Assembly (NCBI RefSeq): GCF_003149245.1
Contig: NZ_QGDL01000007.1
Coordinates: 186,001-250,000 of the forward strand
DNA length: 64,000 nucleotides
Source of the DNA: Faecalicatena orotica
GTDB lineage: Bacteria > Bacillota > Clostridia > Lachnospirales > Lachnospiraceae
Reading direction: 5' to 3'
Made by a program: the position numbers and the translations under genes. Below the pieces are notes generated by a model. It did not search any database. It saw only the letters and a program-made list of their open reading frames with translations, and was not told the DNA's origin. This document shows, piece after piece, positions 59,075 to 64,000 of this stretch; position 1 is the stretch's first letter; every line of letters starts with the position of its first letter.

Positions 59075-59141
59075 TTGAATTTGTAATCATGGGAAGGGAT
59101 TCTGCATATATATAATAGAAATGATTTTTGCGAGGAAATCT

Positions 59142-59858
59142 ATGACTTCTATAAAAGCAATGCAGAATAACGCCGTAGATAAAGGACGGCTGCAGATCAA
59201 TGTGACATCGGACATTACATCTTTTCCTGTATCGGGTGCTAGTATCACGATATCATATACAGGAGTGCCGGACAGTACACTAGAACAGCTGAGCACGGAT
59301 GCATCGGGTCAGACAGAAGAAGTGGAACTGGCTACGCCGCCTCTTGAATACAGTCTGAATCCATCTATTGAAGAGATGCCATATGCCGAATACACATTTG
59401 ATGTCAGCGCACCGGGATTTGAACCAGTCAGTATATCAGGCGCAGAGCTTCTGCCGGAAGTGAAGGCAATACAGAATGTAAGGCTGCGTCCGAGCGAACA
59501 GCAGCAAAATGAGGAAGTGTTCGTGATTCCCGCACATACCCTGTACGGAGAGTATCCGCCGAAGATAGCGGAGGAGGAGATCAAGCCGATCAATGAGACC
59601 GGGGAGATCGTGCTGAGCAGGGTCGTTGTGCCTGAATATATTGTTGTCCACGACGGATCTCCGAGAGACACCACGGCACAGAACTATTATGTAAAATATA
59701 AGGACTATATTAAAAATGTCGCATCCAGTGAGATCTACGCAACCTGGCCTGCCGACACCATACGGGCAAACGTGCTGGCTATTATGTCCTTTACATTGAA
59801 CCGCGTATACACGGAGTGGTCACTCCGTATAAGGTCATTCAGGGTCATAGTAAGGTAG
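59142..59858 (+). pseudogene. SleC-like peptidoglycan-binding spore protein, 3' truncated
   Basis: The N-terminal half of a Clostridial peptidoglycan-binding protein related to the SleC N-terminus. ATG 59142 has GAGGA ahead. The N-terminal beta domain (DKGRLQINVTSDITSFPVSG) is followed by VPEYIVVHDGSPRDTTAQNY and IKNVASSEIYATWPADTIRA. The homology ends at FTLNRVYTEW (Trp codon 59817-59819). In full-length relatives this is followed by a further 250 or so residues with peptidoglycan-binding repeats, which are missing. The last 13 codons belong to foreign DNA. The gene is cut by an inserted element (see the island). Confidence 0.85.
59808..59832. other. Left junction of the foreign island
   Basis: Host-like coding sequence stops at 59819. 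The junction lies in a dyad, CGGAGTG-GT-CACTCCG (59812-59827). A core with inverted repeats is typical of recombinase sites. The right-hand copy is not in the window. Confidence 0.5.
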
Positions 59859-59992
59859 TAAAACAGCCAGAAATAAATACATCTAATGGTCTGGCTTCCT
59901 ATATGCTCATGCACAGTTGCCGGAATCTGATTATCAATGAATTGATTATCAAGATATTAAGTAAATCTAAATATTCTATCGAATATAAATAA
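59819..59992 (+). pseudogene. Possible C-terminal ORF remnant at the island edge
   Basis: A frame of about 57 codons is open from the junction to TAA at 59990, ending in KILSKSKYSIEYK. No start codon or ribosome site precedes it within the island, so it could be the tail of a gene cut at the junction, or chance. Two direct repeats of TGATTATCAA lie within it at 59928 and 59943. Confidence 0.25.
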
Positions 59993-60026
59993 GAATACCC
60001 TCTAATTTCTCTTAAAAGGGTATTTT
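59993..60026 (+). terminator. Terminator-like hairpin 1 at the island start
   Basis: AATACCCT pairs with AGGGTATT, then TTTCTTT. Confidence 0.65.
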
Positions 60027-60343
60027 CTTTCAATTTTCACGTTGTGCAATTTTCACAAATATTTATGCGTTTCATGGCAATAAAATCCGTTTTTCAGTTC
60101 GTTTAAGCTGTAAAACGGATTATTTTTTGTGCAATATAGTGAAAACATTGAATTATCAGACAATATTTCAAATAGTCAGACTCGTTAACAGTAATGAAAG
60201 CAACACGAGCAGGGAGGTGACATGTTTGATTTACAGATGTAATTCACATAATATTATCTCAAATGTACGAGGACCACCGATACGAAATGTATAATCAGCA
60301 GACGTTTGAGTAGAACTTTTGAAAGGAGATAAGCAAAAAGAGC
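60027..60343. other. Leader region upstream of the reverse transcriptase gene
   Basis: About 310 bases without a gene. It has the terminator at 60084-60128 and, from 60130 on, a stretch with CAGGGAGGTGACATG and GAGGACCACCGATACG that could fold, as the 5' RNA of a group II intron or retron would. I cannot identify the canonical intron start GTGYG with a matching domain V downstream. Confidence 0.35.
60084..60128 (+). terminator. Rho-independent terminator 2 at the island start
   Basis: AATCCGTTTT pairs with AAAACGGATT, then a T6 tract. Confidence 0.8.
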
Positions 60344-61594
60344 ATGAAAATGTATACTACTCCTGACAAAGCTAGTCGTTGGGAAGATATTAACTTCAAA
60401 ATGGCAGAGCAAAAGGTTAAAAAGCTGCAAAAGCGTATTGCTGTGGCTTTTGGGAACGATGATTTTGATAAAGTTGCATTGTTGCAGAATATGATAATAC
60501 ATTCGTTTTATGCTAAAGCCTTAGCGGTGAAAATAGTTACTTCTAATAGAGGCAGATACACTGCCGGAATTGATAATGTTGTATGGATTACTCCTGAGGA
60601 GAAATTTGATGCAATATACAATTTATCCCGTAGGGGTTATAAGGCTATGCCATTGAAACGGATATTCATACCGAAGTCCAATGGAGATATGCGACCTCTA
60701 AGTATACCTACGATGAAGGACAGAGCTATGCAGACTTTATATAAGTTTGTATTGGAACCAATCGCAGAGTTTACAGGTGATATGGATTCCTATGGCTTTC
60801 GTCTGAATCGTTCTGCTAAAGATGCAGTTGTAAGATATATTGATATACTATTGAACTTTCCATATCTTAAATGGGTTATGAAAACAGATATTAAATCATG
60901 TTTTGATAATATAAGCCATGAATGGGTGATGAAACATATCCCTATGGATAAAGAAATATTACTTAAATTTCTGAAATGTGGATATATGAGCCATTCGGTA
61001 TATCATCCGACTGAAAAAGGAGTCCCGCAAGGTGGGAGTATATCTAATGTCATTTGTAATATGGTTCTTGATGGGTTGGAAATTTGCCTTGATGACCACT
61101 TTGGCAGTTCTCTATATATGATTCGATATGCTGATGATATTGTCATCGTTGCTGATAGCCAAAAAATTTTGGTACAATCGGTTGTCGCTGTGATTGAGCA
61201 TTTCTTGTTGGAGCGTGGTTTACAACTCTCACAGGAGAAAACTATGGTTTCCCATGTGGAAAATGGAATCATTTTTCTCGGATTTGAGATATACCGAGAA
61301 AATAAAGTAGTAGTCTGTGTACCAGCAAGGAAAAGTGTAACTTCTCTAATGAGTAAAGTGGACTGTATTTTGTCTGCTGTATCAAAGGTATATTTTGATA
61401 AGATACCTGATGAAATACTGTGGAAGTTATGTAATTCCTTAAAATTGGTCATAAGGGGGTGGTTAAATTATTATGCAGATATAGTAACTACACAATCTCT
61501 TCGTGATGTAAAATATGAACTTGTTTCTCAAGTAAACAAATCAACAGGAGATAACCGCATTGCAGAATTTATAAAAAAACTTTTTAAAAAATAA
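60344..61594 (+). CDS. Group II-type reverse transcriptase/maturase, no endonuclease domain
   Basis: Reverse transcriptase of 416 residues. RT blocks in order: RIFIPKSNGDMRPLSIPTMK, KTDIKSCFDNISHEW, GVPQGGSISNVICNMVLD, catalytic MIRYADDIVIVAD and LGFEIYRENK. A maturase-like X domain follows, with IRGWLNYYADIV. The N-terminal ASRWEDINFKMAEQKVKKLQ matches intron-encoded proteins. The D and HNH endonuclease parts that usually follow are absent, and the gene ends at the X domain. G+C is well below that of the host genes. A ribosome site GAAAGGAGA lies 14 bases before the ATG. It could be an intron protein that has lost or never had its intron RNA, or a domesticated RT. A small gene follows after 15 bases. 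Confidence 0.85.
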   Translation: MKMYTTPDKASRWEDINFKMAEQKVKKLQKRIAVAFGNDDFDKVALLQNMIIHSFYAKALAVKIVTSNRGRYTAGIDNVVWITPEEKFDAIYNLSRRGYKAMPLKRIFIPKSNGDMRPLSIPTMKDRAMQTLYKFVLEPIAEFTGDMDSYGFRLNRSAKDAVVRYIDILLNFPYLKWVMKTDIKSCFDNISHEWVMKHIPMDKEILLKFLKCGYMSHSVYHPTEKGVPQGGSISNVICNMVLDGLEICLDDHFGSSLYMIRYADDIVIVADSQKILVQSVVAVIEHFLLERGLQLSQEKTMVSHVENGIIFLGFEIYRENKVVVCVPARKSVTSLMSKVDCILSAVSKVYFDKIPDEILWKLCNSLKLVIRGWLNYYADIVTTQSLRDVKYELVSQVNKSTGDNRIAEFIKKLFKK

Positions 61595-61609
61595 AAGGGG
61601 GACATAATA

Positions 61610-61849
61610 ATGTCAAAAATAATGAAAAAAAATAATGCAAGAGTCGAAGAAAGAGATTTCAGGGATTCCATCGAATTCTGGAGATACAAGGATGAAGTAC
61701 TTGGTGATATTTTAGAAGCACAAAACTATTTTATGGAAGTGATACTAGCAATTGAAGAAGTTCCATCACTAAGGATATTTGAACATTCATTGGTCTCAGG
61801 GTATGATGAACTTATTAAAGCAATATATGATCTTTGCTCCCCTAAATAG
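61610..61849 (+). CDS. Small acidic protein next to the RT
   Basis: Protein of 79 residues with no recognised family, behind AAGGGGGAC. It is mostly helical and acidic (SIEFWRYKDEVLGDILEAQN). It lies 15 bases after the RT gene on the same strand and before a terminator, so the two form an operon and the protein may assist the RT. Function unknown. Confidence 0.55.
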   Translation: MSKIMKKNNARVEERDFRDSIEFWRYKDEVLGDILEAQNYFMEVILAIEEVPSLRIFEHSLVSGYDELIKAIYDLCSPK

Positions 61850-61855
61850 AGATTT

Positions 61856-61899
61856 AACAGCCGTTAAAATCGAAAGCATTACGATTTCAACGGCTGTTT
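61856..61899 (+). terminator. Terminator after the RT operon
   Basis: AACAGCCGTT pairs with AACGGCTGTT and AAATCG with CGATTT, then TTTC. It has a loop of nine bases, so it is not a group II domain V (no GNRA tetraloop, wrong size). Confidence 0.7.
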
Positions 61900-62380
61900 C
61901 TTGTAGTGTTTTTGATGTAAAGAATACGTAAGTTCCTTCTGGCTCAAATCACATTTCTTTCGGTATTCTTTTTACCAATTCAGGACTTATCATTCTTTGT
62001 TCCCATATGTTCACTACCTTTACACATAGTATTAGCGAGTATTAATATATATCTAATAATATTAGGTGTTGATTTCAGTTAGTAATTGTTTCATAGTAGA
62101 TATCCCTTTCTCTTAGGCGTAATCTCCTTTTTAACCCTGTTATGCTATTACCTTGGTAATTCTCCACACAAGTAATGTTCTTTTCATCTAGGTTAGATGT
62201 CCTTTGTTCTACATGGTAATCTGACAGTTTCAGAATACTTACGCTGAACAAAATGAAAACAGTCTTAGAATGGCTCTGCATATATACAAGGTTTTTATAG
62301 GGATTTCTAGATTTTGATGGGTGTTTATCTATAAAACAATGTATAATTATCAACCTATATATTTCGTTTGTGAAAATCTA
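61900..62380. other. AT-rich stretch with no clear gene
   Basis: About 480 bases. The only long frame (62075-62353, minus) has no ribosome site and no known domain, and I do not call it. There may be decayed sequence or a recombination region. Confidence 0.35.
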
Positions 62381-62725
62381 CTATGATGATATTTTTTGTA
62401 TTTCTTTTTCCTGATGATTTATCCGTACAAAGACTTTGCATTGTTCAATACAAATGTACTTCTGTTCTTCTGTTAAAGAACGAAAAATCCGCAGTAATTC
62501 ACTTTCTTGATGTGTATTAGTTTTTTTCGTACAGTGATCTAACAGATAATCAATAGAAACATCGAAATACTCTGCTAATAGTTTTAAAGTAGAAAAATCT
62601 GGTTCACGTGTATTCTGAACGTAACTTCCCATTGTAGACGGAGCTATGTTTAAATATGTAGCCAATTCTTTTTGCGTCATATTCCGTTCTTCAATCAAAG
62701 TACGTAAGTTATTGCCAAAACTCAT
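62381..62725 (-). CDS. XRE-family repressor
   Basis: Regulator of 114 residues, start 62725 with GGAGG seven bases ahead. The N-terminal helix-turn-helix (1-65) has MTQKELATYLNIAPSTMGSY and EPDFSTLKLLAEYFDVSIDY, a phage-like Cro/CI signature. The C-terminal 45 residues (LTEEQKYICIEQCKVFVRIN) are a helix for dimers. It is divergent from the glycosylase-like gene. Two identical 16-base repeats lie between them and over that gene's promoter, so it is the likely repressor of that gene and its partner. Confidence 0.9.
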   Translation of the reverse strand: MSFGNNLRTLIEERNMTQKELATYLNIAPSTMGSYVQNTREPDFSTLKLLAEYFDVSIDYLLDHCTKKTNTHQESELLRIFRSLTEEQKYICIEQCKVFVRINHQEKEIQKISS

Positions 62726-62783
62726 GTCATTTACCTCCTATCTCTCTCACATTTTAATTGATAGGTATTGTAATTTCCCTAGT

Positions 62784-62826
62784 AACTACTATACGAGTTG
62801 ACAAACTACTATACGAGTTATAGAAT
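62784..62826 (+). promoter_or_regulatory. Promoter of the glycosylase-like gene with two operators
   Basis: TTGACA (62798-62803), 17-base spacer and TAGAAT (62821-62826). The repeat AACTACTATACGAGTT occurs at 62784-62799 and again at 62804-62819, exactly filling the spacer. Each repeat is a dyad AACT-NN-TATA-NN-AGTT. This fits a repressor that blocks RNA polymerase binding. Confidence 0.75.
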
Positions 62827-62878
62827 ATAATTAACATATCTTACTTTTTAAAAATCATACAAAAGAGAGGAAATCACA

Positions 62879-63733
62879 ATGAGAGCATACATAGAGAATA
62901 TTAGCAAAATAGTCGAACAAATGGATATTCAGTTACGAACAAATCTATTAATAAAGGATGGTCAGATTCAAGAGAAAAAATTGTGGGAAAATACGTATAT
63001 TAAACACCAAAAAGATAGGCGAGATAGAAAAGAGGGATTTTCCATTAGCGACCACATCCGAGGGATGGTGTATGCAATGTTAAGTTCAGGGATTGCATGG
63101 GAACGGGTTGAAAATAGTATTGATATATTGACCGGAAAAATAGAAACAATAGATGAAATCTTTCATCAATATAATCCTCAGATACTATTGGAATGTTCTC
63201 CAGAAGAATTAAGTGATAAAGTAAAGCATCTTCACTGTGCAAGTCAGAGTACAAAAAAGCAAATGAACGGATTGATACATACAAACATTGAGAAGTTAAT
63301 GCAGTTAGAAAAAGAATACGATAGTATTGACGGTTTTTATCAAAGATTTATTGATAAAGACAGTTCATACAAAACATTGATAAAAACACTTTCCGATTCC
63401 GACAGTGTGAATAAAATGGTAGAAATGGGAGAAGCCTTAAACGCTGAATATTTGCGTAATGTAGGTTATGACATGGCAAAACCTGACAGGCATATCCGAA
63501 GAATTTTAGGAAGTAATGTACTAGCTTGTTCAGAACATGAAATAGTTCCATTATTTCAAACCTTTGATATAGTCAAAGATATTGCAGATGAATTAGGAAA
63601 ATCTGTGGCAGAGGTTGATTATATTCTATGGTCTTACTGCTCAAAAGGTTATGGGGAAGTATGTACAGTAATTAACCCCAAGTGTAGTATATGCGTTGCC
63701 AGACAGATTTGTAGAAAACATGTTGAAAAATAA
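62879..63733 (+). CDS. HhH-GPD-like protein with EndoIII-type 4Fe-4S motif
   Basis: Protein of 284 residues, behind GAGAGG. The first half (about 1-150) is helical and unassigned. The second half has NVGYDMAKPDRHIRRILG near residue 200: a hairpin-like loop followed by Asp203 in PDRH, where HhH-GPD DNA glycosylases have a catalytic Asp in VDTHV or DRHV. The C-terminus carries C262-x6-C269-x2-C272-x5-C278, exactly the spacing of the cluster loop of endonuclease III and MutY. So it is probably a DNA-damage or modified-base enzyme. The repressor next to it, tight promoter control and island location suggest a phage-defence or element-maintenance role, but no catalytic activity is proven. Confidence 0.6.
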   Translation: MRAYIENISKIVEQMDIQLRTNLLIKDGQIQEKKLWENTYIKHQKDRRDRKEGFSISDHIRGMVYAMLSSGIAWERVENSIDILTGKIETIDEIFHQYNPQILLECSPEELSDKVKHLHCASQSTKKQMNGLIHTNIEKLMQLEKEYDSIDGFYQRFIDKDSSYKTLIKTLSDSDSVNKMVEMGEALNAEYLRNVGYDMAKPDRHIRRILGSNVLACSEHEIVPLFQTFDIVKDIADELGKSVAEVDYILWSYCSKGYGEVCTVINPKCSICVARQICRKHVEK

Positions 63734-63742
63734 AGGGGGATT

Positions 63743-64000
63743 ATGATGGTTGAAAATAAATATTTATTATACTCTCATTACGGCATAAAAGAAAATGCTA
63801 CCTGTTCAGAGATCATAGTAAGGGCTGCGAAAAAATCTTATCTGGAATTTTGCAGAAGGGTTTCATTCGAGAAAAATATATCTGTAGATGACAGACGAAC
63901 GTTTGAGTTTGAAGTTGAGAAGTTACTGGCTAATATGATTCCAAGATTAATAGAAGAAATCGTAAATGAGGATGAAAATCAAGAGTTATTTGACAGAAAA
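63743..64000 (+). CDS. Unknown protein, 3' partial
   Basis: ATG 63743 (or 63746) behind AAAGGGGGA, nine bases after the stop of the glycosylase-like gene, and open to the window edge. The visible 86 residues begin MMVENKYLLYSHYGIKENAT and are charged and helical. I do not recognise a family. It is in an operon with the glycosylase-like gene and could be its partner. Confidence 0.7.
   Translation, partial: MMVENKYLLYSHYGIKENATCSEIIVRAAKKSYLEFCRRVSFEKNISVDDRRTFEFEVEKLLANMIPRLIEEIVNEDENQELFDRK

Follow-up and report, generated by a model that had tools for sequence, protein, structure and literature searches.

What becomes of a spore gene whose reading frame breaks off in mid-course and gives way to foreign DNA? 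This question is raised by the right end of a 64,000-nucleotide stretch of the Faecalicatena orotica genome (genome G000, C7:186001-250000; NZ_QGDL01000007.1), referred to hereafter as the window, in which the gene sleC is cut after codon 234 by a 10.7-kb element. In our assessment, the insert is quite probably a sleC-intervening element, one of a sleC-specific family of the kind represented by skin and SPbeta: a reduced mobile element set at codons 234/235 by a phage-type large serine recombinase (LSR) and excised in the sporulating mother cell, where sleC would be rebuilt. The sequence features that carry this reading are the two gene halves and the two junctions, the adjacent LSR, the restoration of the reading frame, an LSR family found at one codon, a phage attachment site (attP), and purifying selection. 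In dozens of relatives sleC is split at the same positions, which suggests that DNA editing is required for these bacteria to have a working gene.

The split sleC gene of Faecalicatena orotica

The sleC frame matches that of relatives up to ...FTLNRVYTEW, with the TGG codon ending at 59819; beyond this point homology is lost, the DNA is AT-rich, and a stop codon follows that ends at 59858. Together with the G+C content of the insert (33.4% vs. 47.5% in the remainder of the locus), this bears out an earlier note on this DNA, which had a host-like frame ending here and foreign DNA following it. That note also placed the right end of the element beyond the window, and the element indeed extends to C7:256478 (window-equivalent 70478). 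Extension of the contig to the right brought to light the missing 3' half of sleC beside a second junction, in frame from C7:256479 and separated from the 5' part by 10,659 bp. The features of the split gene are:

59121..59819, + strand: 5' part of sleC, codons 1-234 (numbering of the gene in the related genome G001), with an alternative later start at 59145
59795..59850, + strand: left attachment site (attL), in which the host half ...CGGAGTGG meets the element half TCACTCCGTATAAGGTCATTCAGGG; the core is GGT, and the central GT occupies 59819-59820
C7:245820-256478 (window-equivalent 59820-70478): the whole intervening element, 10,659 bp, of which the left 4.2 kb (59820..64000) lie in the window
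C7:254786-256561: LSR with Resolvase and Recombinase domains, a PHROG integrase; last gene of the element, before the right attachment site (attR) and the 3' half of sleC
C7:256479-257063 (window-equivalent 70479 onward): 3' half of sleC, on the same contig

When the flanks of the G000 element were joined in silico, we obtained a complete SleC protein that could be aligned end to end with the intact SleC of G001, with a single gap of one residue that does not lie at the junction; the flanks from genome G121, rejoined likewise, gave a full reading frame. The gene does not naturally end at the break in relatives, as is evident from the uninterrupted sleC of G001, which encodes about 428 amino acids. 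Searches for the gene found no second copy of sleC in G000.

The intact G001 protein matches the pre-pro-form of a spore cortex-lytic enzyme (PDB 9h68) over residues 21-427, with an E value of 6e-135, and has a PG_binding_1 domain at its C-terminus. Its homology to SleC is co-linear over the full length and both G000 halves align to it; we identify the interrupted gene as sleC, encoding a putative cortex-lytic enzyme. SleC opens the spore wall at germination, and sleC is needed for germination where this has been studied. Since the break at codon 234/235 falls within the conserved stretch LNRVYTEWYRNKGY, well 5' of the C-terminal domain, neither half is likely to work alone. In PMC5025042, sleC of Clostridioides difficile is listed as a target of the mother-cell factor sigma-K.

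The view of the earlier note that a foreign element splits a SleC gene is upheld, and the junctions resemble recombinase attachment sites. In G000, attL reads ...CGGAGTGG followed by TCACTCCG... and attR reads ...GAATCGG followed by TACAGGAAC..., while the empty site in G001 reads ...CAGAGTGG followed by TATCGGAAC...; GGT is common to both G000 junctions. The short dyad CGGAGTG-GT-CACTCCG, within which the junction had been placed, is present in F. orotica at 59812-59827 with its central GT (59819-59820) on the junction, but it is not a general feature, since it is near-perfect in G000 and G121 and is partial or absent in most other left ends compared. What recurs is a short core containing GT, with outer arms of the CCCGAAT...ATTCRGGG kind.

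Split sleC genes and recombinases in relatives

Among 397 genomes of the same family, 255 (G000 included) gave a sleC match at E <= 1e-15. Forty-five of these, with weak or multiple matches, were hand-picked and re-searched; for the other 210, a single strong match was accepted as a sign of an intact gene. The sorting was done by hand. Twelve of the 45 were dropped as contig breaks, frameshifts, unclear cases or paralogs (G068, G083, G091, G093, G104, G114, G115, G147, G163, G167, G218, G221); one of them, G114, has ten sleC-like matches at E <= 1e-10 on several contigs. Both halves of sleC were present and separated in 27 of the 255 genomes, G000 among them, with eight splits at codon 234/235 (site A), 17 at about codon 302 (site B) and two at about codons 170-185 (site C). 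The halves lie on one contig in 15 cases and on different contigs in 12. Six further genomes with one half only (G059, G149, G160, G179, G220, G244) are counted apart. As a control, albeit a weak one, rseP was matched in 383 of the same 397 genomes, with single near-full-length open frames among the matches listed.

Serine recombinase sequence lies within 500 nucleotides (nt) of a junction in 25 of the 27 genomes (in G331 as a relic), and 992 nt and 1757 nt away in G335 and G017, respectively. The queries for this search came partly from the same loci; a Pfam check comprised eight proteins from seven loci (sites A, B and C and a paralog in G331), all of which have Resolvase and Recombinase domains. 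The G331 paralog is a second sleC copy and is interrupted as well; the 2.0-kb element in it contains just an open reading frame (ORF) of 51 amino acids and an open LSR.

A second survey was blind to sleC: 84,980 species genomes were scanned with a profile built from seven LSRs of site A, which detects only relatives holding one of two short peptide motifs. It yielded 78 LSR loci, in 74 of which tblastn revealed a sleC piece broken at codon 234/235. In two more (L111, L112), the last few tens of bases of the contig encode NRVYTEW on the opposite strand, giving 76 of 78 loci with a broken sleC, and the remaining two (L142, L155) are cut within the LSR. Four records are common to both surveys (L080, L087, L088, L100). 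In 63 loci no more than 200 nt separate the sleC piece from the end of the LSR, 42 with the 3' half downstream and 21 with the 5' half in convergent orientation. Site A elements measure 2.0-14.1 kb among the 31 that have both ends on the fetched locus (one record counted twice; the 6-kb flanks favor small elements). Judging from these loci, a dedicated LSR family sits at sleC codon 234/235 in nearly every genome found. The LSR family of site B is not exclusive to sleC: 150 genomes gave 21 matches at E <= 1e-120, of which seven adjoin sleC, six of them on the locus as fetched and one in G017. The site B core is TGACC in most elements read.

Some sleC genes seem to have been split twice, at sites A and B, either with a second recombinase present (L101, L126) or by sequence reading (L094, L098, L141, L158, L159). 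In L137 the gene is apparently split at sites A and C, the double split in L138 is ambiguous, and a further break near codon 311 is found in L108, L116 and L135, whose genes are already split at site A. On one IMG/VR contig (L158/L194), a site A LSR and a 68-codon middle piece of sleC occupy one end and a site B type LSR occupies the opposite end; the contig looks as though it were bounded by a doubly split sleC. Integration at one and the same codon took opposite directions in L098/L099 and in L156, whose LSRs are 89% identical in nucleotide sequence; a possible reason is that the site, GGTACC, is a palindrome.

Phage forms of these elements exist as well. Two contigs in IMG/VR, L160 at 68 kb and L161 at 146 kb, encode the LSR along with phage tail or appendage-type proteins and have no sleC match in their records. 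L160 possesses an intact attP, and the same site is joined to sleC in L137, the two LSRs being identical at 1643 of 1644 nt. As to site B, a sleC half ends or starts at codon 300-304 in 16 of the 80 IMG/VR loci kept, and seven of them resemble one phage. Among named phages and plasmids, 190 and 68 records matched, respectively, all at less than 60% identity (21-27% among the matches listed).

We assessed selection on those sleC halves that align as one block, leaving out pieces cut by a second split. The 3' halves contain no stop codon in 60 rows (56 distinct), and the 5' halves (50 rows, 48 distinct) contain none before the junction, while ten have one past it. The median ratio of nonsynonymous to synonymous substitution rates (dN/dS) was 0.055 for the 3' halves (10 pairs, one duplicated; maximum 0.25) and 0.092 for the 5' halves (eight pairs; maximum 0.29), in each case with dS < 1.2. 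By these measures, purifying selection acts on both halves of the split gene. LSRs that are at least 98.9% identical occur in hosts whose sleC genes are 71-79% identical (L080/L081/L082, L109/L151, L098/L099); therefore, these elements moved recently. The near-identical LSRs of L121/L123 accompany identical sleC genes and are uninformative on transfer. In three other pairs the dS values of LSR and sleC are similar (L119/L120, 0.65/0.44; L084/L086, 1.11/0.93; L128/L138, 1.08/0.71), which fits, without proving it, a long inheritance in the split state.

Proposed excision of the element and rival explanations

During sporulation, excision by the LSR and a directionality factor would take place in the terminal mother cell. 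There, sleC would be rebuilt early enough for its product to be incorporated into the spore, while the element would persist in the germ line, as happens with the skin element of sigK and the SPbeta prophage of spsM. The directionality factor is perhaps a small protein encoded just upstream of the LSR, where 62 of 79 cases have a small ORF that conforms to a loosely defined common motif. Upstream of this ORF, L091 and L096 have a TTGACA-type promoter beside repeated CCACAAAAAGTGG motifs, an arrangement that looks operator-like. The 2-kb element of G331 has no terminator-like hairpin between the 5' half of sleC and the small ORF plus LSR, so that transcription reading through from sleC could bring about the repair of the gene itself; such a mechanism is unlikely for the 10.7-kb element of G000, because many genes intervene. 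These are, within the window and to its right:

60344..61594, + strand: reverse transcriptase of the group II intron type (RVT_N and RVT_1; its score falls short of the NCBIfam maturase-family cut-off)
61610..61849, + strand: 79-amino-acid ORF without a Pfam or NCBIfam family
62381..62725, - strand: XRE-type helix-turn-helix regulator, from family scans
62879..63733, + strand: 284-amino-acid protein with a weak DNA glycosylase/OGG-like match at its C-terminus
63743..64000, continuing past the window edge, + strand: 238-amino-acid ORF, cargo
Right of the window: leucine-rich repeat protein, small resolvase, nucleotidyltransferase/substrate-binding pair, 100-amino-acid ORF, LSR

A nucleotidyltransferase and substrate-binding pair at L002:8783-9461 resembles MntA/HI0074-type modules and is perhaps a toxin-antitoxin or defense pair. 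Pfam and NCBIfam scans of the 12 larger ORFs of the G000 element found no phage structural gene, and we do not class it as a prophage; there are other sleC elements that are prophage-sized or phage.

The reverse transcriptase in the insert could be taken to mark a group II intron that is spliced from the sleC messenger, so that repair would occur at the RNA level. An Rfam search at E up to 0.5 found no group II intron RNA in the element, and the absence of intron RNA domains around the reverse transcriptase contradicts such splicing. The element boundaries are serine-recombinase sites, and no reverse transcriptase is among the listed ORFs of other elements at this site, e.g., those of G204 and the G331 paralog; we give this explanation almost no credence. 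Only slightly more room is left for the notion that the halves belong to a decayed or misassembled gene: of the 27 pairs, 12 have their halves on different contigs, and several candidates, such as G091, G093 and G115, proved to be contig breaks and were dropped, but the 15 pairs on one contig, among them that of the single-contig genome G335, contradict it, as do halves free of stops and a breakpoint at the same codon across genera.

A weightier rival has phages and their relics using a conserved, vegetatively silent gene as a safe-harbor attachment site (attB) without any excision program, so that sleC stays broken until chance loss. Several of our observations weigh against programmed excision, and some of them favor this rival. 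Horizontal transfer has clearly been recent; many elements having moved of late, the integrity of the gene could in part reflect recent arrival. A scan with consensus sequences, confined to the small ORF-LSR operon, found sigma-E-, sigma-K- and sigma-G-like sites before 2, 1, and 0 of 60 operons, respectively, compared to means of 0.9, 0.8, and 1.4 in shuffled sequences, and hence no sporulation promoter signal. The main split copy of G331 has no more than a recombinase relic beside its 3' half, site B elements include prophage-sized IMG/VR contigs, and the gene is split in only 27 to 33 of the 255 genomes that have it. The assignment of the small ORF as directionality factor is a guess; excision, its timing and its trigger are predicted here from sequence, and sporulation of this strain and its need for SleC are assumed. 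Yet gene halves left broken until chance loss accord poorly with the lack of decay in 56 distinct 3' halves, with low dN/dS values, with pairs that apparently diverged while split, with elements reduced to about 2-3 kb that nevertheless keep an open recombinase, and with the failure to find another sleC copy in G000. We consider insertion without a program rather improbable. For a skin-like role of the element, which the earlier note had raised as speculation, there is strong indirect evidence in the selection on both halves, the open LSR kept in several 2-3 kb elements, and dozens of cases in one sporulation gene.

An excisable sleC element would join a known class, for which the cited papers name sigK, spsM, spoVFB, spoVR, gerE and yabG as target genes (PMC5595907, PMC10747680, PMC5025042, PMC8270828, PMC4557955); within the titles and abstract openings searched, with few subscription journals covered, no interrupted sleC was reported. 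As with skin in sigK of Bacillus subtilis and C. difficile, a mother-cell sporulation gene is split, an LSR lies inside the element and excision would restore the frame; the target gene and site differ, and according to PMC5025042 excision and a directionality factor have been shown for skin, whereas for the sleC element they are predicted. With SPbeta in spsM of B. subtilis it shares the phage-type LSR, attachment sites inside a spore gene, and phage forms. The SPbeta attP lies between sprA and sprB, with sprB under SigK/SigE control (PMC8270828), while in the sleC elements attP is often inside the LSR gene and no sporulation promoter was found in that operon. PMC5595907 and PMC10747680 describe two further similar systems: gin, a non-phage element with serine recombinases in the small spore gene gerE of Bacillus cereus, and yin, a prophage-like element in the Clostridium botulinum protease gene yabG, whose product processes pre-pro-SleC in C. 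difficile. There, yin is described as unique to one strain, whereas sleC is hit at three or more sites family-wide, one of which has an LSR family dedicated to it.

An attachment site inside the recombinase gene

The stop codon of the LSR lies 20 or 11 nt inside the host sleC in 27 of the 42 rightward cases and about 28 nt inside it in 14 of the 21 leftward cases; the last residues of the integrated LSR are therefore host-encoded in those cases. When the ends of an element are joined, the LSR frame continues into a tail coded at the far end, ending like NELIIKITGKSxYxIEYR. In F. orotica the corresponding stretch is:

59819..59992, + strand: predicted in-frame C-terminal tail of the element's recombinase in the excised circle (VTPYKVIQG...NELIIKILSKSKYSIEYK)

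Such a circle tail is present in 10 of the 32 elements with both ends (one record counted twice; two tails partial), namely in L002, L025, L081, L085, L086, L108, L116 and L156 and, in the opposite orientation, in L098 and L130, for which the tail frame was derived arithmetically from coordinates. L096 has a second copy of the LSR in which the tail follows on directly from the enzyme, and the LSR of phage L161 reads through attP into a shorter, related tail; a recognizable tail is absent from the other 22 of the 32 elements and from phage L160. In an AlphaFold model of a phage LSR, the tail had a confidence score (pLDDT) of about 30 and was uninformative.

Since attP lies within many of these LSR genes, integration swaps the C-terminus of the LSR, and this predicted exchange is a second novelty beside the splitting of sleC. 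The free circle would make an LSR with the conserved tail, which integration would replace with host-encoded residues, so that the C-terminus would record the integration state of the protein itself. In mycobacteriophage BPs, attP likewise lies in a coding gene and integration shortens the C-terminus (by 33 residues); according to PMC4557955 the shortened protein is the repressor that confers integration-dependent immunity, whereas in the sleC elements it is the integrase itself. A wider proposal, which we put forward tentatively and rate at somewhat less than an even chance, is that SleC production in many gut Lachnospiraceae spore-formers depends on programmed excision by an LSR family with attP in its own gene, and that the tail swap toggles between an integrating and an excising form.

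Earlier descriptions of developmental excision in spore-formers have proceeded one gene at a time; in this gut family a single gene is the repeated target, at no fewer than three sites and sometimes twice per gene. An attP inside the recombinase gene may provide integrases with a novel means of monitoring their own state. If excision is programmed, predictions of spore transmission would be led astray by pipelines that treat a split sleC as a pseudogene, and the germination competence of many gut commensals would rest on a mobile recombinase.

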